From positions 62,001-126,000 of the forward strand of contig NZ_WBJR01000002.1 in assembly GCF_009296185.1 (NCBI RefSeq): a stretch of DNA of 64,000 nt. Direction: 5' to 3'. The position numbers and the translations under genes are program-made. Of this stretch, positions 4,848-12,911 are shown piece after piece (position 1 is the first letter of the stretch; each line of letters begins with the position of its first letter). The notes beneath the pieces are model-generated. The model had not been told where the DNA came from. It did not search any database and worked only from the letters and a program-made list of their open reading frames with translations. This DNA comes from Hydrogenovibrio sp. JE_KL2 (lineage in GTDB: Bacteria; Pseudomonadota; Gammaproteobacteria; Thiomicrospirales; Thiomicrospiraceae).

Positions 4848-5245
4848 CACTCATCATTTTGCAAAGATCGAATTAACGTTACATTTGCCCGTGTATCCGT
4901 CTAAAATAAAAGTGCTTTTCATATATATAAAACTGAGATGGCGCAACGAGCGGGGTGAAGCTTAATTCTCCAGGTTTGGTATTTCCTCTCAAAACCGATG
5001 CATTTTAACGACTGTTTGTTTTCATTTTGAAATCCGCTCGGATTCAATGACCCTTTTGCCATCATGAGTGAAATTAGTCGGAATCAGTTGGTATGTCGGC
5101 TTCCGCTCGGTGGAAACCTTGGTGTGGTGTATGGTGCTGCTGGTGCAGATGATTCCTTATTTATCCGCGATGATTTTTTCGACCCTCAGCGTTTTTCCAA
5201 ACTCTTCGGTGAAGTGGTTGCCGTTCAAGTGATGTTTATACTCTT
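4848..5245. other. Gene-free stretch, possibly a decayed reading frame
   Basis: About 400 bases without a convincing gene. One - strand frame is open except for a single in-frame TAA near 5160, giving two peptides of about 28 and 44 codons with protein-like composition (one contains NGNHFTEEFGKTLRVEK). I do not recognise it. No RNA gene or clear promoter is visible. Confidence 0.3.
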
Positions 5246-5265
5246 ACCCCAACCTGGTAGATTTT
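5246..5265 (+). repeat. Window-wide motif, copy 3 (four-C, CTGGTAG form)
   Basis: Reads ACCCCAACCTGGTAGATTTT, 31 bases beyond the gpmA stop codon. Confidence 0.9.
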
Positions 5266-5296
5266 AGCGATTATTCCGATGCTCATTCTTGCCGTT

Positions 5297-5977
5297 TTAA
5301 GCCAACGCCTTTTTGTGCAATTTGTTGTCCGCCCACTCATACAGCAATGGCGTACCGGTAGGAATCTCCAACTCGAGCACCTGATCTTTCGATAGGTTCT
5401 CAATCAACATCACGATTGAGCGTAAGCTATTGCCATGCGCCGATACCAGCACGTTTTTGCCCGCCGTCAGCAAAGGCATCACACTCTCCACAAAGAAGGG
5501 AATGGTACGTTCCGACGTGTCTTTTAAACTCTCGCCATTCGGCGGCGGCACATCATAACTTCTGCGCCAGATATGCACCTGCTCATCCCCAAACTCTTCC
5601 GCCACTTGTGCCTTGTTTCGCCCTTGCAGTTCACCGTAATAGCGCTCGTTCAAATGCCAGTTGTGATAAATCGGTAAGATATTCGCCAGCGTTTCTTCGC
5701 TGTAAATGCCGGTTTTATCCTTCATCTCCGGGTCATCATGCAACACCACCGGCGTTTTCTCGCTGTGCGATTGCACTAAGGCAATCATCGCGGTTTCCAT
5801 CGCGCGAATCTGCATGGAACTGAACACCACATCAAATTCGATATCCGCGATTTTCTGGCCTGCGGCTTCCGCTTCCTTGATGCCGTTTTGCGACAAAGGC
5901 ACATCCACCCAACCGGTAAAGATATTCTTTAGATTCCACACGGATTCCCCGTGTCGCAATAAAACCAGCTTTGACAT
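5297..5977 (-). CDS. gpmA: 2,3-bisphosphoglycerate-dependent phosphoglycerate mutase
   Basis: Cytoplasmic glycolytic/gluconeogenic enzyme that interconverts 3- and 2-phosphoglycerate through a phosphohistidine. The RHGES motif holds the phosphorylated His9; ERYYGELQG and VSAHGNSLR supply the rest of the active site. The roughly 226 residues are slightly short of E. coli GpmA. ATG at 5977 is preferred to the GTG one codon upstream because GAGG then sits six bases before the start. A diverged copy of its first 33 codons and leader lies at 8773-8983, beside the 1262-residue gene. Confidence 0.95.
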   Translation of the reverse strand: MSKLVLLRHGESVWNLKNIFTGWVDVPLSQNGIKEAEAAGQKIADIEFDVVFSSMQIRAMETAMIALVQSHSEKTPVVLHDDPEMKDKTGIYSEETLANILPIYHNWHLNERYYGELQGRNKAQVAEEFGDEQVHIWRRSYDVPPPNGESLKDTSERTIPFFVESVMPLLTAGKNVLVSAHGNSLRSIVMLIENLSKDQVLELEIPTGTPLLYEWADNKLHKKALA

Positions 5978-6120
5978 CACGCACCTCTAAACAAAGGAAG
6001 ATAGAGTTTTATCATAATGGTTTTTATGCGCCTTTTTTATGAAGTAAATCGTAAGATTTAAGAGTCATTTTTCTAAAAATGATCAGATACCATCGTAAAC
6101 TTTTCGGAAATCTAGGCAAG

Positions 6121-6696
6121 TTACTTCAAAAGTTTTTCTAGGATTAACTGCAAAGTCTCTAGCACTTTTTTAACTGGTTGCCCACTTTGAACGCGCGTAA
6201 TTGCGCCATCTATAGCGAGAGAAATCGCCTCGGATAGTATTTCAGGCTGTCCAGATTTCAACAATGATGCCGCAATTAGATTTGTCATATCTTCTTTATG
6301 CTTCAGTGAAATTTTTGACACTTCCGGTAATTCACTGCCAATTTCACCAACACTGTTAATAAAAGCACATCCCCGATAGTCACTATCTGAAAACCACTCC
6401 GAAAGAACATCGGTCAACCGTTCTATTTGATTATTCTTCTGCTCTAATGCCTGTGAGAACCAAGCCATCCATTTATCATGACGATAATGTAAAAACGCCA
6501 GAATCAAATCATTTTTACTAGGATAGTGTCGGTAAAAAGTCACTTTAGTCACTCCCGATTCTTTAATTAGTTTATCCACACCAGTGGCTCGAATGCCGTT
6601 TTGGTAAAACAAATCGTGTGCTGTCAGCAAGATGCGGGTTTTGGCATCAGAAACTTTTGCAGGGGGCATATCATTTTTTGTTTTCATGGCATGCAT
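6121..6696 (-). CDS. TetR/AcrR-family repressor
   Basis: The N-terminal helix-turn-helix is classic TetR (RILLTAHDLFYQNGIRATGVDKLIKESGVTKVTFYRHYPSKNDLI), followed by an all-helical ligand domain, about 190 residues in all. It is divergent from the DUF1348 gene at 6775, and two inverted copies of one operator lie between them, so it most likely represses itself and that gene. The start is uncertain: ATG at 6696 or 6687 is possible, neither has a good ribosome site, and the farther TTG at 6705 would put an operator inside the coding sequence. The ligand is unknown. Confidence 0.88.
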   Translation of the reverse strand: MHAMKTKNDMPPAKVSDAKTRILLTAHDLFYQNGIRATGVDKLIKESGVTKVTFYRHYPSKNDLILAFLHYRHDKWMAWFSQALEQKNNQIERLTDVLSEWFSDSDYRGCAFINSVGEIGSELPEVSKISLKHKEDMTNLIAASLLKSGQPEILSEAISLAIDGAITRVQSGQPVKKVLETLQLILEKLLK

Positions 6697-6698
6697 TA

Positions 6699-6750
6699 TA
6701 GACAAGTCTGTCTACTTTGGTTACACTTTTAAGTAGACAGACTTGTCTAC
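6699..6750. promoter_or_regulatory. Two inverted TetR operators in the divergent promoter
   Basis: TAGACAAGTCTGTCTAC (6699-6715) and GTAGACAGACTTGTCTAC (6733-6750) are the same sequence in opposite orientation, each a near-palindrome. They lie between the tetR-like and DUF1348 starts, as expected for control of both. Confidence 0.82.
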
Positions 6751-6774
6751 ATACTTAAAAAATAGGGGAACAAT

Positions 6775-7242
6775 ATGGAAATTAAAGCACCGACACCACC
6801 ATTCACCATGGAAACTGCGATACAAAAAGTTCGCATGGCAGAAGATGCCTGGAATACTCGCGACCCTGAAAAAGTCGCATTGGTTTATACCGAGGATACA
6901 GTTTGGCGAAACCGAACAGTGTTTCCTCGTGGTCGAGCAGAAGTAAAAGGCTTCCTAAAACAAAAATGGGAAAAGGAACTCGACTACCGACTCATAAAGG
7001 AAATCTGGGGATTTCGTGAAAACCGTATTGCCGTTCGTTTTGCGTATGAATGGCACGATCAAACAGAGCAATGGTTTCGCTCTTACGGAATTGAAACCTG
7101 GGAATTCAACCCTCAAGGCTTAATGCAAAGACGATTCGCTAGCATTAATGACATGAAAATTGACGAAGCTGAAAGAAAATTCTTTTGGCCTCTAGGACGC
7201 AGACCAGACGATCACCCAAGTCTTAGTGATTTAGAAATGTAA
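6775..7242 (+). CDS. DUF1348 / NTF2-like (SnoaL-fold) protein
   Basis: A 155-residue single-domain protein of the DUF1348 family. Its marks are visible: [23 protein letters not shown], the conserved W and R residues through [21 protein letters not shown], and the closing [16 protein letters not shown]. The fold is a cone-shaped NTF2 barrel; the biochemical role is not known. AGGGGAA stands six bases before the ATG. It is divergent from a TetR repressor and behind its operators, the usual setting for a gene induced by a small electrophile or toxic compound; that link is inference. It ends at a hairpin formed by a copy of the window-wide motif. Confidence 0.88.
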
Positions 7243-7262
7243 ACCTTGACGAGCCAAGTAAA

Positions 7263-7290
7263 CTGCCAGATACCCAACCTGGCAGATTTT
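7263..7290 (+). repeat. Window-wide motif, copy 4, as an inverted-repeat hairpin
   Basis: The motif (7272-7290) is joined by an upstream CTGCCAG arm (7263-7269) that pairs perfectly with its CTGGCAG, followed by ATTTT. It lies between convergent genes and looks like a bidirectional terminator. Confidence 0.82.
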
Positions 7291-7347
7291 ACTCAATAGT
7301 TTTAAAGTGTGTTTGCATGAAGTTAGTCGTGAAAATGGATACCGCGT

Positions 7348-8091
7348 TTATATTTGCGCTAGCCCACCATCTACCTGAAAATCCGCACCCGAAACAAAAG
7401 AAGCCTCATCTGAAGCCAAAAATAATATCGCATTTGCAATCTCATTTGGCGAACCAATTCGACGCAACGGTGTTGCAGCCGTAACCTGCTGCAAAATATT
7501 TGACAAAACACCTTCTTCAAAACCAAATTTGTCGAAAATCGGTGTTTGCGTAACTCCGGGGGACAGAACATTCACCCGAATTCCCTGTGGACTCAATTGT
7601 TCAGCAAACGAACGTCCAAGAGACCTGACAGCGGCTTTAGTAGCGCCATATACAGACCAAACGCCAGCGCCTTTTTGCGCCTGAATCGAAGAAATGAGAA
7701 TAATCGAAGCTCCTATCTTTAAAAATGGTATTGCCTTTTGCACCGTAAAAAAAACGCCTTTAACATTCACATTAAAGCTCTTGTCAAAACTGGCTTCTGT
7801 CACCGCCTCAACATTTTGCGCTTCTGCAATGCCTGCGTTTGCCACAACCACATCCAGTCGCCCCCACTTTTCGATGCAAAATTGATAGAACATCTCTATA
7901 TCTGCTAACTTCGTCACATCTCCTTGAAAGATTAAGACTTGATCACCATACTTTTCTTTCAGACTATCCAGTCCTTGCTCAGATCGCCCCATCACCGCAA
8001 CTTTATAGCCACGCTCAATAAACAAACTGGTTGTCGCCAAACCAATGCCGGAATACCCACCTGTAATTGCCAATACTTTCATTTCCATCAT
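7348..8091 (-). CDS. Short-chain dehydrogenase/reductase
   Basis: NAD(P)-dependent oxidoreductase with a Rossmann fold, 247 residues. The cofactor glycine motif TGGYSGIG is at the N-terminus; NAG, the catalytic Ser (LISSIQ) and the YGATK pair follow in order, and the C-terminus has the family FVSGADFQVDGG. ATG at 8091 is chosen because AAGGAG lies six bases upstream. The substrate is unknown; SDRs of this type often act on hydroxy or keto compounds. It is divergent from an XRE-cupin regulator that probably controls it. Confidence 0.9.
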   Translation of the reverse strand: MMEMKVLAITGGYSGIGLATTSLFIERGYKVAVMGRSEQGLDSLKEKYGDQVLIFQGDVTKLADIEMFYQFCIEKWGRLDVVVANAGIAEAQNVEAVTEASFDKSFNVNVKGVFFTVQKAIPFLKIGASIILISSIQAQKGAGVWSVYGATKAAVRSLGRSFAEQLSPQGIRVNVLSPGVTQTPIFDKFGFEEGVLSNILQQVTAATPLRRIGSPNEIANAILFLASDEASFVSGADFQVDGGLAQI

Positions 8092-8127
8092 GCTCTCCTT
8101 AAATGAAATTGCTGTTTTCAGCCATTG

Positions 8128-8188
8128 CACTATAGCGATGTCAGGAAATACAAAATATACTATAGTGAAATTATTCCAATATAGTGGA
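8128..8188. promoter_or_regulatory. Candidate operators between the SDR and XRE-cupin genes
   Basis: Three related CTATAG-type elements occur in the shared promoter: CACTATAG (8128-8135), ACTATAGTG (8159-8167) and TATAGTGG (8180-8188). The middle one is almost palindromic. They are likely sites for the adjacent XRE-cupin protein; the assignment is inferred from position. Confidence 0.5.
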
Positions 8189-8194
8189 AATGCA

Positions 8195-8755
8195 ATGAAT
8201 GACTTCGCCCACATCAGTGCGTTTATCAAACAATATCGACTCGCAAACCAGGAAACTTTACAAAGTTTATCGGAGCGTTCTCAAGTAAGTCGCTCGATGA
8301 TTGCACAAATAGAAAGCGGGCAAGCCTGCCCCACGATTAACGTGCTGTCAAAACTGGCGAATGCCATGAATATTCGACTAGGCGAATTAGTTGAACCGCC
8401 AGAAAACCAATCTCGTATTAAAGTCTTCCAGCCAAATGAAAATAATATCGTCAGCAAACCCAACCACCCGTTTGTATGCCATCATCTGACCCATCAAGCC
8501 GGTAAGGTTCCAACGGATTTTTACAGCTTCCATTTCACCGATTACGGCAAAACGGACTTTGGCGCTAACATTCCGGGTTCAACCAAATATCTTTGGCTGG
8601 AATCTGGACAACTCACAATTTACCATGCCACGGAAAACATCACGCTAAAAGCCGGCAGAATGGCGACATTCAATGCCGCCATTCCCCATCGGTTCGAAAG
8701 CAAAAGCGGCTCTCTTGCCAAAGGCATTTTCTTAGTGACCTATGATAATGCCTGA
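8195..8755 (+). CDS. XRE-cupin transcriptional regulator
   Basis: A 186-residue regulator with an N-terminal helix-turn-helix (SLSERSQVSRSMIAQIESGQACPTINVLSKLANAMN) joined to a C-terminal single cupin barrel (YLWLESGQLTIYHATENITLKAGRMATFNAAIPHRFES) that probably binds the inducer. ATG at 8195 is chosen because it begins the domain, although the frame is open further upstream across the promoter. It is divergent from the SDR gene and probably regulates it and itself. Its TGA stop shares its last base with the repeat copy at 8755. Confidence 0.9.
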   Translation: MNDFAHISAFIKQYRLANQETLQSLSERSQVSRSMIAQIESGQACPTINVLSKLANAMNIRLGELVEPPENQSRIKVFQPNENNIVSKPNHPFVCHHLTHQAGKVPTDFYSFHFTDYGKTDFGANIPGSTKYLWLESGQLTIYHATENITLKAGRMATFNAAIPHRFESKSGSLAKGIFLVTYDNA

Positions 8756-8774
8756 CCCCAACCTGGCAGATTTT
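8755..8774 (+). repeat. Window-wide motif, copy 5
   Basis: Reads ACCCCAACCTGGCAGATTTT. It is squeezed between the XRE-cupin stop and the gpmA fragment, and touches the stop codons of both. Confidence 0.9.
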
Positions 8775-8983
8775 ACTCATTAATGTTGATGCCGTTTTGC
8801 GACAAAGGCACATCCACCCAACCAGTAAAGATATTCTTCAGATTCCACACGGACTCCCCGTGCCGCAATAAAACCAGCTTTGACATCACGCACCCCTAAG
8901 CGAAGGAAGATAGAGTTTTATCATAATGATTTTGAAATGGATTTTGTATGGAAGAAATCATGAGATTTGAAATACATGATTCC
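8773..8983 (-). pseudogene. Duplicated 5' end and leader of gpmA
   Basis: On the - strand, from ATG at 8886, the first 33 codons of gpmA recur ([15 protein letters not shown] onward) with mostly silent changes. Four unrelated codons and a TAA made by the flanking repeat follow, leaving a 37-residue open frame. The ribosome site and about 100 bases of leader are duplicated too; similarity fades near 8983, matching 6068 in the true copy. His9 is kept but most of the enzyme is gone. The two copies are direct repeats, so recombination between them would delete the roughly 2.9 kb holding the TetR/DUF1348 and SDR/XRE modules and restore one intact gpmA. Confidence 0.88.
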
Positions 8984-9085
8984 TTTGGTTTTTGTTCTTT
9001 CTTTTTTAGCCTACCGCTTTAATAATAAATAGAATTATTTTCTTAAACACACATATTTTTTATCAAAATTACTAGTGAGGCAATC

Positions 9086-12000
9086 ATGAGCGGATGGAAC
9101 ATAACAGCAAATGATATAAAAAACTGGACTGCTACAAATAAGCGTCTTGCCGAAGAAATGCTCCCCCTTTTGATTAAAAAACTCATACTCGCGTCTGTAA
9201 CCCCTGAAGAAATCGATTTTCCATCTGGCGATAGTATTGCTGTTGGCGGTTGGGATGGGGTTCTTAACGTAAAAGAAGGCACTAAATTTGTTCCTGAAGG
9301 AAAATCTGGTTGGGAATTTGGCACTAACAACAGTGTTAAAAACAAAGCAGATAAAGACTACAAAAAACGCTCAGATAAACCAGAACCTTTTTCTCCTGAA
9401 GAAACTTCTTTTGTTTTTGTAACCTCTCGTTTATGGACAACCAGAGACAAGTGGGTTTCCGAAAAAAAATCCGACCAAATATGGAAGGATGTCAAAGGAA
9501 TCAATGCAAGTACCCTTGCTGAATGGCTAGAATACTGTCCCGCTGTGCATCGGTGGTTCGCTCAAATTTTAGGCAAAAGAGAACCAACTGTTAAAGATAT
9601 AGATCAGGCTTGGGAAGAATATAGCAACATTACTGAAAAACCTTTAACTACTAGCTTCTTTAAACATAATCGTGAAAATGAAATTTCAGAACTCAGTAAC
9701 TTCCTTACAAAAGGTTCAGGTGTTTTTAGAATTCTTTCAACGTCTAAAGCTGAAGCATATGGATTTGTCTTAGCAGTAATTCAGACAAACGAAATATTTG
9801 GTTCAAGAGCACTATTTATAAAATCCCAAGAAAGCTGGGACTTTATGTTAGAAAATGACCAACCACTTATTTTAGTGCCATATGGCTTTCAACCAACCAA
9901 CATTGGCGCTGCGACAGCAAAGAATCATCTAGTAATCATCATTGATGACCAATATGCAAAATCTCCGTCCTTAACATTAGAACGTCAGCCACGACTTGTT
10001 CGTGAGGAAGCAATTAAAACACTAGGTTTTAATGATTCCGAAGCTAATACTCTATATCAAGATACAAAAGGATACCTTGAGCCAATACTTAGGCATGATT
10101 GGCTCAAGCCAAGAGATGTAATTTACCCGGTATGGTTAGATAAGTATGATCCCGAAGTACTCTTTACAGTGTTATTTTCATCCGAATGGATTGAAAGTAA
10201 CGAAAATGATAAGCAAATTCTAGAAAAATTATCAGACTTACCGTATGAACAATTACAAAAACAGCTTACTGCACTATCCAAAGAACCGGATCCTCCGGTC
10301 AGATATATTAGAGATGTTTGGCAAGTTATTTCTAAATTAGATTTATGGTTTTTAATTTTCCCAAGGCTCTCTAAAACATACTTAGATCGCTTAAAAGATG
10401 TTATCCCTTTGATTTTTACTGACTTTGATCCTGCGTATGACCTAAGTCCTGATGAACGATTTTTCGCTAATATTCATGGAACCGTTCCAAAATACTCAGG
10501 TGCATTAAAAAGCGGTATAGCAGACACTCTGGCTCTACTAGCTAACTTTGGCGACGACTATTCAAACCATTTAGGCGGTATTTCTGTTCAGTCAAACATT
10601 AGCTACTGGTTACGTACTTTGTATGAAGAAAATAATCATGTTCGTTTCTGGTTTTCTTTAGACTCTTGTACTCTCTCATTTGCGGAAGCAGCCCCAAAAG
10701 AGTTTCTAGATGCAATTGATGCTTCAAGTCAAGGATCAGCTTCTCCAATGTTGAAAATATTTGAAGCCGAAGGTGAAGATACCTTTAGTGGAGTATGTTA
10801 TCACAGTAATATTTTGTGGGGACTGGAGAGCATTTCTTGGAATAAACTGTACCTAACCCAAACATGTTCTTGTTTGGCTCGTCTATCTGAAATTGATCCT
10901 GGGGGTCGGTGGGGCAAAAGACCTTTTAGTTCGTTGGTTGATGTTTTTCTAGGCTGGATTAATAACGTTTCGGCAACTCACGATGAAAGACTCAAAATTT
11001 TACAGCATGTTTTAATTCCTAATTTTCCAGATATTGCATGGAAATTAATGTTGAAGCTAATTAATACATTTCCCGGTATGACTTCGGGTGTCCACAAACC
11101 AAAATATCGAGATTGGGCATTAAGTGTTGATTCAACAACAACCAATGTTGCCTACATGAACTATACAAAAGCAATTGTGGATTTACTTTTGAATGAAGTC
11201 GATAACGATTTAGAAAATAGAATCATTGATTTAATTAAAAGCTTCGATTCCTATACAGAAAAACAAATAGAGGCAATCTTAGCTAAATTCTTAAGTTTAG
11301 ACGATAGCCACCTAAACGATGATCAGAGAATTAAAATTTTAGATTCACTAAGAAATACAATTTCACATCACCGAGAATTTCCAGATACAGATTGGTCTTG
11401 GGAAGAAGCTTTACTTAAAAGATTGGAAGATATTTACAATAAATTTAACTTTCCTGATGCAATGAAAAGTAACTCATTCCTTTTTAGGGATTATCACCCT
11501 AACCTGATTGAACCTTTAAATAAAAAAGAATTTGACCATTATCAGAGAGAAGAACTACTTTCAAAAAAACGAATCGATGTCGTTGAACAAATTACCAAGG
11601 AGCATGGTTCTGATGGAATTATTCACTTTATAGAGAATGTTAGTTATCCTGACATCATTGGTAATACCGCCTACTTTTCACCCATATCCAATTCCCTAGA
11701 ATCACTAGCTTTTAATTGGATAAATGAATCTGGCAAAAAAAAGGCTTTTTCAAAAGGCTTCCTTACACCTCTAGCACATAATGAATTTGATAGAGCAAAA
11801 CAACTTCTCGTAGAAAACAAAGACTGGGCAACCCAAACTAAGGCTGAATTTTTGCTAAGTTTTCCGATAAATGAAAAAACGTTAACCGTAGTAGATGCAC
11901 AGCCAACAGAAACTCAAAAATATTTTTGGATGAGCCTTGATCGATATTTTTCAGCCGATTCAATCATCACTCGGTTGCGAATAGTAGAAAAGTTTTTTAA

Positions 12001-12874
12001 GTATGATCGCCCCTTTGCAGCGATTGATGTGATGGCAGCAGCTTTATACAAAAAAGAACACCTAACTCAAATCAACCCTAGCTTGGTTGCCGATATTTTG
12101 AAAAAGGCAATCTCTAATCCAGCAGATATGGAGCAAGTAGGTTTACAAAGAATACATTATGATATTCTTAAGTGTATTGAATTCTTACAGCATTCAGGAG
12201 AAATACCAGATGAAACGATGGTGCAAATTGAATGGAACTTTTTAAAATTATTTGAATATCAAGAACAATTGCCTAAAACTTTAATCAAAGCTGTCGCAGA
12301 TGACCCCAGTTTCTTCGCTCAGCTCATTTCTTGGATGTACAAAAGAAAAGATGGCAAAGAAGATTCCCCTGAAACGTTAACAACAGAACAGATGCAGATT
12401 CGTGCAGAAAATGCTTGGAATCTCCTCAATATGATTACTACTTTGCCAGGTCAAAGTGGTGAAGACATTGATCAAAATATATTAAATACATGGGTAACTT
12501 CTGCCAGAGAGCAATTAGAACAAATAGGGCGTAAAGATATTGGAGACAGCCAAATTGGAGAATATTTATCTCATTGCCCTAAGGGAAAAGATGGCTTTTG
12601 GCCACATGAAGCCGTCCGCTCGGTTTTAGAAAAATGCAAAAGTAAGAAAATTGAAGATGGCCTTGTAAATGGAAAACACAATTTACGAGGCATTACTTCT
12701 AGACATCCATATGCCGGTGGCGATCAAGAAAGGATTTTAGCTAATCAATATACTGAAGCTGCAAACGTAATGAGCTTAACTTTTCCAAGAACAGCGTTGG
12801 TTTTAAGAGAGTTATCAGAAGATTATAAGTACCATGCAAAAAGACATGATCAAGATGTTGAGTTGCACGATTAA
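9086..12874 (+). CDS. Large protein of unknown function, candidate single-gene defence protein
   Basis: 1262 residues, start supported by GAGG six bases upstream. I do not recognise a named family. Region 1, about residues 1-165, is a compact alpha/beta domain with GGWDG (54-58), PEGKSGWEFGT (70-80), KADKDYKKR and then FVFVTSRLW, ending DVKGINASTLAEWLEYCPAVHRWF. The Asp57/Glu77/Lys spacing is reminiscent of a restriction-endonuclease-like fold, but no canonical (D/E)xK is present. Region 2, about 190-350, resembles a STAND NTPase (RENEISELSNFL, a hydrophobic strand NHLVIIIDD) but lacks a Walker A loop. Region 3, to the end, is a long helical repeat scaffold. The gene is clearly more AT-rich than metE and gpmA, stands alone, and sits beside the gpmA duplication, all suggesting horizontal gain. 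Antiphage function is inference. Confidence 0.75.
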   Translation: MSGWNITANDIKNWTATNKRLAEEMLPLLIKKLILASVTPEEIDFPSGDSIAVGGWDGVLNVKEGTKFVPEGKSGWEFGTNNSVKNKADKDYKKRSDKPEPFSPEETSFVFVTSRLWTTRDKWVSEKKSDQIWKDVKGINASTLAEWLEYCPAVHRWFAQILGKREPTVKDIDQAWEEYSNITEKPLTTSFFKHNRENEISELSNFLTKGSGVFRILSTSKAEAYGFVLAVIQTNEIFGSRALFIKSQESWDFMLENDQPLILVPYGFQPTNIGAATAKNHLVIIIDDQYAKSPSLTLERQPRLVREEAIKTLGFNDSEANTLYQDTKGYLEPILRHDWLKPRDVIYPVWLDKYDPEVLFTVLFSSEWIESNENDKQILEKLSDLPYEQLQKQLTALSKEPDPPVRYIRDVWQVISKLDLWFLIFPRLSKTYLDRLKDVIPLIFTDFDPAYDLSPDERFFANIHGTVPKYSGALKSGIADTLALLANFGDDYSNHLGGISVQSNISYWLRTLYEENNHVRFWFSLDSCTLSFAEAAPKEFLDAIDASSQGSASPMLKIFEAEGEDTFSGVCYHSNILWGLESISWNKLYLTQTCSCLARLSEIDPGGRWGKRPFSSLVDVFLGWINNVSATHDERLKILQHVLIPNFPDIAWKLMLKLINTFPGMTSGVHKPKYRDWALSVDSTTTNVAYMNYTKAIVDLLLNEVDNDLENRIIDLIKSFDSYTEKQIEAILAKFLSLDDSHLNDDQRIKILDSLRNTISHHREFPDTDWSWEEALLKRLEDIYNKFNFPDAMKSNSFLFRDYHPNLIEPLNKKEFDHYQREELLSKKRIDVVEQITKEHGSDGIIHFIENVSYPDIIGNTAYFSPISNSLESLAFNWINESGKKKAFSKGFLTPLAHNEFDRAKQLLVENKDWATQTKAEFLLSFPINEKTLTVVDAQPTETQKYFWMSLDRYFSADSIITRLRIVEKFFKYDRPFAAIDVMAAALYKKEHLTQINPSLVADILKKAISNPADMEQVGLQRIHYDILKCIEFLQHSGEIPDETMVQIEWNFLKLFEYQEQLPKTLIKAVADDPSFFAQLISWMYKRKDGKEDSPETLTTEQMQIRAENAWNLLNMITTLPGQSGEDIDQNILNTWVTSAREQLEQIGRKDIGDSQIGEYLSHCPKGKDGFWPHEAVRSVLEKCKSKKIEDGLVNGKHNLRGITSRHPYAGGDQERILANQYTEAANVMSLTFPRTALVLRELSEDYKYHAKRHDQDVELHD

Positions 12875-12878
12875 CACT

Positions 12879-12911
12879 AAAAAACCGCCAGACCCAACCT
12901 GGCAGTTTTTT
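12879..12911. terminator. Bidirectional terminator built on window-wide motif copy 6
   Basis: The motif variant at 12892-12910 (ACCCAACCTGGCAGTTTTTT) pairs with an upstream CCGCCAG arm: GCCAG / CTGGC, extended by a G-U pair on the - strand. Six A bases on the left and six T bases on the right give a T-run in both directions. It serves the 1262-residue gene and metE, which converge here. Confidence 0.82.

Follow-up and report, generated by a model that had tools for sequence, protein, structure and literature searches.

A lone accessory gene of Hydrogenovibrio encodes a candidate anti-phage receptor with a predicted inactive STAND fold

Results

The gene and its insertion site

The window analysed here is a stretch of 64,000 nucleotides from Hydrogenovibrio sp. 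JE_KL2, and the subject of this work is a gene on its forward strand, at 9086–12874, whose product of 1262 amino acids (aa) is probably a stand-alone anti-phage immune receptor. The open reading frame (ORF) is uninterrupted and is the longest of the 74 window ORFs of at least 120 aa; it starts with ATG, and a sequence resembling a ribosome-binding site, GTGAGG (9075–9080), sits five bases 5′ of the start. The ORF is more than a chance one, because its relatives are conserved at full length across phyla. Its GC content is 36.4%, compared to 46.0% for the whole window, and the genome holds a single copy.

The gene is an accessory insertion. Among 93 searched genomes it was found in its own only, being absent from the 10 other genomes of the genus, 47 genomes of the family and 35 other genomes of the class; at the level of the phylum, 12 of 398 genomes gave a match, its own included, and two of these (G131 and G166) were only partial. 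MetE is present in 9 of the 11 genus genomes, and in G010 (locus L140), where it is 93% identical to the window's MetE, the site is empty: the gpmA-side segment (window 5078–6064) ends and, 14 bases on, the metE side (window 12881) starts, terminator included. In the window, the left border of the insert is a 183-bp duplicate of the gpmA-side end (8786–8968), 89% identical to 5877–6059, the upstream-side end of a histidine-phosphatase-family gene at 5297–5980. The insert itself (8969–12880), not found at this site in G010, holds this gene alone. The original prediction had described a long, AT-rich lone gene between gpmA debris and metE, and each of these features was recovered, with metE identified at the other flank. 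It had also assigned the gene a terminator of its own, which did not stand: the stem at 12887–12903 (forward strand) adjoins metE in the gene-less L140 as well, so that the terminator is that of metE, at most shared. The search for an own promoter gave 10 promoter-like sites, compared to 12.3 expected from shuffling, and such a promoter was rejected.

A second insert, at 6065–8785, separates the duplicated gpmA-side end from the intact gpmA-like gene; it carries a TetR regulator, DUF1348, a short-chain dehydrogenase and a helix-turn-helix (HTH)-cupin gene, and is not at the G010 site either. At the same gpmA-metE spot, G003 (L139), which is another species of the genus, carries a different sequence of about 1 kb (L139:437–1447) with a DUF2975 gene and a short ORF judged by eye to be HTH-like. 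This suggests that the spot is a small insertion hotspot; the other six loci of the genus are uninformative on the site, their gpmA side being unaligned next to metE. The search for transposon ends at the insert borders found just an 18-bp direct repeat (8757–8774 and 12893–12910). This repeat holds the 10-mer CCAGGTTGGG, which occurs 17 times in the window, counting both strands, and at some of these sites is part of the terminator-like element CCCAACCTGGCAG(A/T)TTTT; it could represent a repeat of the genus that resembles an uptake sequence or is linked to terminators.

Predicted domain architecture

The window protein has no convincing match in Pfam, NCBIfam or PADLOC, the best in Pfam being COMMD8_HN (E 0.047, under its cut-off). 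Residues 1–165 (9086–9580) probably form a PD-(D/E)XK-like nuclease head, as suggested by the AlphaFold model (predicted local distance difference test, pLDDT, mostly 94–98 in the head, mean 94.3 for residues 1–370), by hhalign to the PD-Lambda-4_A head and by Foldseek with residues 1–370. The motifs GGWDG and PEGKSGWEFG, on which a nuclease-like head had been proposed, were located in it at residues 54–58 and 70–79. Residue conservation was counted over 90 full-length members of the family: D57, G58, P70 and E77 are invariant (90/90) and K87 is a lysine in 85/90. In the model, D57 (codon 9254–9256), the putative catalytic aspartate, stands just ahead of one strand, E77 (9314–9316), the putative catalytic glutamate, in the next strand, and K87 (9344–9346), a candidate displaced catalytic lysine, in the helix that follows.

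PD-(D/E)XK enzymes have their lysine two residues past the glutamate. At this place (position 79), 88 of the 90 members have glycine, serine or threonine and two, L027 and L043, have lysine. Both are without K87 and both have glutamate at 87 instead, with the strings WEFK...EAD and WEVK...EAN, respectively, compared to WEFG...KAD. The two belong to separate clades, and the chance of finding both among the five members without K87 is 0.0025. It appears from the alignment that the catalytic lysine moved to the helix and moved back twice, and this exchange, together with the invariant D57 and E77, speaks for the nuclease-like head of the original prediction.

A Foldseek search of the PDB with residues 1–370 returned two matches at E ≤ 0.001, both to Avs4 with phage portal (4.8e-4 and 7.7e-4). 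NSF and further AAA+ proteins came next, interspersed with Avs3 (ranks 5 and 18) and a Cap4 receptor (rank 6), and the TM-scores were low throughout. Weak support came from a viral-fold library, in which three entries named nucleases matched at E 0.011–0.048, the aligned residues not being given.

Residues 166–345 (9581–10120) are predicted to be an inactive STAND/AAA+ fold. With VIA-align, the best match was ClpC1 (Z 10.0, 169 residues at 3.4 Å), and RFC, ORC, Dark and Apaf-1 scored Z 8–9; in the PDB-sequence profile search the best matches, a designed ATPase (E 0.011) and Hsp104 (E 0.017), both fell on this domain. The Walker A loop is missing at residues 213–224 (9722–9757): in the alignment, none of the 90 members has GK[ST] at the P-loop place. 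A GK[ST] string occurs elsewhere within residues 176–350 in 7/90, at query position 209, 256, 292 or 314, never after the first strand, and an active STAND ATPase was rejected on this ground. Strings of the hhhD[DE] type occur in 3/90; the VIIIDD of the window protein (about residues 283–288) lies off the strand that aligns to the Walker B of PD-Lambda-4_A. The STAND-like middle without Walker A that had been noted earlier thus finds its counterpart in an AAA+/STAND fold with no P-loop in any of the 90 members.

The remainder of the protein, residues 345–1262, was modelled at pLDDT 92.0 as helical save for a few short strands. Four of these strands fall within residues 356–415 (10151–10330), a segment that we read, from its secondary-structure pattern in the model, as winged-helix-like. 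Residues 417–1262 (10334–12871; model pLDDT 92) are predicted to form a HEAT/ARM-like alpha-solenoid, the putative sensor, which corresponds to the long helical repeat of the original prediction. Foldseek and VIA matched it to importins, the PP2A scaffold, condensin-like and other HEAT proteins (Z ≤ 9.0), and the PDB-sequence profile search with the C-terminal module (C-module) found nothing under E 0.01. A housekeeping enzyme was rejected as well: matches in Pfam, NCBIfam and PADLOC were unconvincing, the PDB-sequence profile searches gave none under E 0.01, and the structure resembled nothing convincingly beyond the common AAA+ and HEAT folds.

Distant homology to PD-Lambda-4_A

The PADLOC profile of PD-Lambda-4_A (PDLC03991) does not reach the window gene. 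It matches the relative L003 at 9.5e-5, at the equivalent position, and in 398 genomes of the phylum it matched nine, including G472, where the matching protein belongs to the present family (5.5e-4). In the opposite direction, the hidden Markov model (HMM) of the family found the PD-Lambda-4_A homologues L111 (8.8e-14), L113 (4.1e-9) and L107 (6.9e-5), gave weak matches to L110 and L116 (0.05–0.1), and matched no ORF of any other family in the sampled loci, even at E values up to 10. When the family was aligned by hhalign with a profile of six PD-Lambda-4_A-type ORFs, two of them partial, the match was collinear over 1065 columns (99.6%, E 6.4e-24). Taken block by block, the head matched at 84% (7.4e-6) and the C-module at 99.2% (1.7e-19). 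The controls against the window family (MetE, an integrase-like cluster, a large NACHT-like neighbour and mismatched blocks) all stayed at or below 0.4%. One control did give a signal, since PD-Lambda-4_A aligned with the NACHT-like neighbour (21%, E 0.001, 87 columns around the P-loop); this is what two P-loop proteins might give, and the window family is not involved in it.

A P-loop of the GLSGVGKT type is present in five of the six PD-Lambda-4_A-type ORFs, and the sixth, L111, is cut before the loop; the four homologues with a head all have DGG(I/V)D..FQxK. Since these homologues keep the P-loop, the window family is without a loop that its relatives have. By profile comparison, we regard the family as a collinear distant homologue of PD-Lambda-4_A. 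The original prediction had not anticipated this homology, which strengthens a reading in terms of defence.

Distribution of the family

The family is widespread and is not named in the reference catalogues checked. In a collection of genome contigs with one genome per species, at least 595 stretches were matched, at least 574 of them encoding a relative, and the best 80 relatives include Bacteroidota, Actinomycetota, Planctomycetota, WOR-3, Chloroflexi and a metagenome-assembled genome (MAG) of the archaeon Methanosaeta. Closest among the matches listed are the proteins of Paenibacillus oleatilyticus (46%) and of an unclassified bacterium (44%), both of which cluster with that of the window at a support of 1.0. 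Within the class of the window, the G235 copy has an aligned core identical to that of Pseudomonas nicosulfuronedens, so that the nearest named relative of the window protein is in another phylum.

By tblastn, 22 plasmid records match, 18 of them covering at least 80% of the protein, and 11 of the 22 are conjugative. Among viral contigs, the alignment scan returned 12 relatives and the scan with the single protein none, and one phage record matches across 48%. Viral carriage being only occasional, a phage gene was rejected. In L064, from Sedimenticola, a split close to residue 337 divides the gene into a head-plus-middle part and a C-module.

Exchangeable N-termini and partners

The window protein has no N-terminal extension. 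Among 95 other members, 45 have one of at least 60 aa and 50 do not. The 39 extensions scanned matched HTH_3 in 25 cases and HTH_17/MerR in 10, and one extension matched the PADLOC 'Control_protein' at 5.8e-13.

Versions of the C-module that lack the usual head were found as well, namely in Shewanella OS117 (L025), in the interrupted gene of L015 and in 7 of the 12 viral contigs. A second N-terminus, NPFSTGGGG..DTDD..QxKHS, is present in OS117, in L015 and in six of these seven viral contigs, four of which share the same N-terminus, and recurs in 18 plasmid records (annotations from 15) of proteins annotated as tetratricopeptide repeat (TPR), ATP-binding or NACHT. Our reading of this second head, which has no Pfam match, is that of a putative Cap4/DUF4297-like nuclease; P0004 matches PADLOC DUF626_VIII at 4.7e-5. 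Two versions with a short N-terminus, L005 and L169, lie each directly 3′ of a HetE-N gene (1.5e-40 and 7.3e-33), and the two genes are likely to form a two-gene system. The HetE-N genes are at L005:9564–9884, on a Buttiauxella plasmid, and at L169:7573–7917, on a viral contig.

Gene neighbourhoods

In order to describe the surroundings of the family, 150 genes near its members, from many phyla, were compared to 145 random genes from 19 control stretches. With PADLOC at 1e-10, 266 families were matched by at least one near gene and 8 by the controls. Among the families listed (25 for the near genes), the near genes gave AbiEii (6), AbiEi (5), SoFic (3), PDC-S24 (3), mad3 (2) and DrmD (1), and the control genes mad3 (6, a family also found near the window family), mad8 (3) and AriA (3), the rest with one each. 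In a hand-picked set of 88 near genes without AbiE-like ones, 92 families were matched at 1e-25; the 25 listed include DrmD, DrmA, DrmMII, type II methyltransferases and restriction enzymes, and also a cyclase, a phospholipase effector, E1-E2, KwaA and UzuA, mostly with one gene each. Three of nine annotated plasmid loci contain named defence genes (Shedu with a reverse transcriptase and SLATT; type I restriction; Abi with superinfection exclusion), three have toxin-antitoxin genes, one has PDDEXK with ImmA/IrrE, and two have nothing recognised. The homologues are thus placed in variable, mobile and defence-rich contexts, and not in fixed core-genome ones.

No conserved partner was found among 857 neighbours from 72 loci: the largest recurrent cluster, integrase-like by eye, covers nine loci and an AbiEii-like one eight, and by BLAST none of these neighbours matched the genes that adjoin the PD-Lambda-4_A homologue L107. 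AbiEi/AbiEii-like pairs adjoin the family gene upstream in L034, L048, L049 and L055 and downstream in L073, reading away from it in four loci; the hosts are two alphaproteobacterial MAGs, an unclassified MAG, a Pseudomonas and a Chlamydiae MAG. In the Actinomycetota loci L083, L086 and L101, a gene of 1389–1411 aa lies 260–281 bases downstream of the family gene; the one scanned, L083:13983–18149, contains a P-loop and matches NACHT weakly (E 3.1e-4, short of the cut-off).

Discussion

The proposed receptor and its alternatives

We consider it fairly probable that the window protein acts on its own as an immune receptor against phages, in the manner of Avs and NLR proteins but with no nucleotide switching. 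The HEAT-like solenoid (about residues 417–1262), past the winged-helix-like segment, would bind a phage or plasmid product, while the inactive STAND fold (166–345) would serve as a linker or assembly scaffold in place of an ATP switch. Binding of the ligand would gather the PD-(D/E)XK heads and lead to DNA cutting, by which the infection might be stopped or the cell killed. Since ATP is not expected to be held in the usual way without a P-loop, a ligand-driven, nucleotide-free trigger is to be expected, and published proposals on inactive STAND sensors are compatible with it. Nuclease activity, DNA as its substrate, the solenoid as the sensor, assembly on activation and the role in defence are what we infer. 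That the gene might encode a defence or surveillance protein had also been put forward in the original prediction, and it now gains from the homology to PD-Lambda-4_A and from the defence-rich, mobile contexts.

Several observations weigh against this interpretation. L033 has arginine and L085 and L087 glutamine at 87, with no lysine at 79. The Foldseek TM-scores to Avs4 are low (0.27–0.28), with NSF and ATAD2 close behind; the VIA Z of 10 is little over the 7–8 usual for unmatched models; and the middle block on its own aligns weakly to PD-Lambda-4_A (9%, E 0.0037). The matches of the solenoid are generic for helical repeats and uninformative on function, and the HTH fusions fit a DNA-acting or self-regulating protein equally well. 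In the comparison of neighbourhoods, the controls come only from the phylum of the window and the near genes from many phyla, and PADLOC matches were counted by family rather than by gene, with up to 25 families listed.

An alternative that we hold to be unlikely, and yet worth weighing, is a modification-independent endonuclease of the restriction type, which would contact foreign DNA directly and cut it with no sensing of phage proteins, the contact being made by the solenoid, the winged-helix-like segment or the HTH that is fused to many relatives. The HTH_3 and HTH_17/MerR extensions and the 'Control_protein' match would fit such an enzyme, and inactive STAND domains have been proposed as nucleic-acid receptors in PMC8195603 and PMC12839542. 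However, more than half of the members counted, and the window protein likewise, have no extension, and the C-module persists in proteins whose head is swapped or absent, as would suit a separate sensor. The exchange of the lysine between positions 79 and 87 slightly lowers the probability of this endonuclease and slightly raises that of the receptor.

It is rather improbable that the protein is one half of a multi-gene PD-Lambda-4-like system whose partner is encoded elsewhere in the genome. The collinear homology to PD-Lambda-4_A, a PADLOC name that implies a second component, and the two short-N versions next to HetE-N genes would argue for it, but neither a conserved partner nor a counterpart of the genes beside L107 emerged from the neighbourhoods, and no other gene lies in the insert. 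We hold it to be very improbable that the protein serves maintenance (of a plasmid or the host) or regulation, as a transcription regulator or an addiction module would, and not defence, given that the annotation of HTH-fused members as regulators or HigA-like and the toxin-antitoxin genes near some loci are set against invariant nuclease-type residues, a traded lysine, the collinear homology to a defence protein, the matches of neighbours to defence families and the lack of a fixed operon partner.

Beyond the single protein, we tentatively propose, as a possibility that the present data leave on the weaker side, a widespread set of nucleotide-free receptors of the NLR/Avs kind, in which one HEAT-type sensor is combined, depending on the lineage, with either of two nuclease-type heads or with a separate HetE-N gene, and for which ligand binding would be trigger enough because the STAND domain gave up ATP. 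STAND/NLR receptors are regarded as dependent on nucleotide binding for setting and releasing their switch. With a large family that keeps the STAND fold but has lost the P-loop in every member counted, it could be tested directly whether the scaffold by itself carries the signal, and its K79/E87 members make the active site of the head directly testable. The exchangeable heads and partners lend themselves to the question of what is sensed by the C-module that they share, and a catalogue entry would serve a family of at least 574 stretches that has no name in the 2023 defence library. HetE-N is named after HET-E, a fungal incompatibility NLR; if the proposal is true, the HetE-N partner would tie this class of receptors to self/non-self recognition elsewhere.

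Comparison with known systems

As separate modules, inactive STAND domains, heads of the PD-(D/E)XK type and helical sensors have all been described before. In the open-licence literature, as far as its accessible text extends, a single-protein immune receptor of such a build was not found described, nor was a lone three-part protein with the loop lost in all members examined, the link to PD-Lambda-4_A, or the variants with HetE-N or the second head. These second-type heads and HetE-N partners go with the same C-module in relatives, and neither is part of the window gene.

PD-Lambda-4 reportedly protects against phage. From its name, we take PD-Lambda-4_A to be a system from the functional selection in E. 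coli by Vassallo et al. (2022). The name PD-Lambda-4 does not occur in the accessible portion of the main text of that study; PD-Lambda-4 is listed as a P-loop NTPase in the review PMC10952713. PD-Lambda-4_A shares with the window family a PD-(D/E)XK-like head, a STAND-like middle and a long helical C-terminus in the same order, at 14% identity in the alignment. In contrast to PD-Lambda-4_A, which has the P-loop and the lysine in the head, the window family is without the P-loop and mostly has glycine or serine at the place of the lysine.

The Avs proteins follow the order head (an effector nuclease), STAND (an active ATPase with Walker A) and helical repeat, and have a TPR-like C-terminus, by which a phage terminase or portal is bound. 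Avs4, at the first two ranks, and Avs3 were among the top Foldseek matches of residues 1–370, and no Avs chain was among the matches of the PDB-sequence profile searches. The window family differs from Avs in being without Walker A and in its C-terminus, which is predicted to be HEAT-like.

The window family also joins the domains called inactive STAND, having a predicted STAND/AAA+ fold from which the nucleotide motifs are lost. Known inactive STAND domains are accompanied by MoxR-vWA or BREX genes; around the window family, the clustering of the 857 neighbours gave no recurrent partner. Such domains have been proposed as sensors or nucleic-acid receptors in PMC7159879, PMC8195603 and PMC12839542, and iSTAND, iSTAND2 and BrxB, of ternary conflict systems and BREX, are described there as STAND folds with eroded nucleotide motifs and a proposed sensing part. 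Whereas iSTAND and BrxB are parts of multi-gene systems, the window protein would join the head, the inactive STAND and the solenoid on its own.

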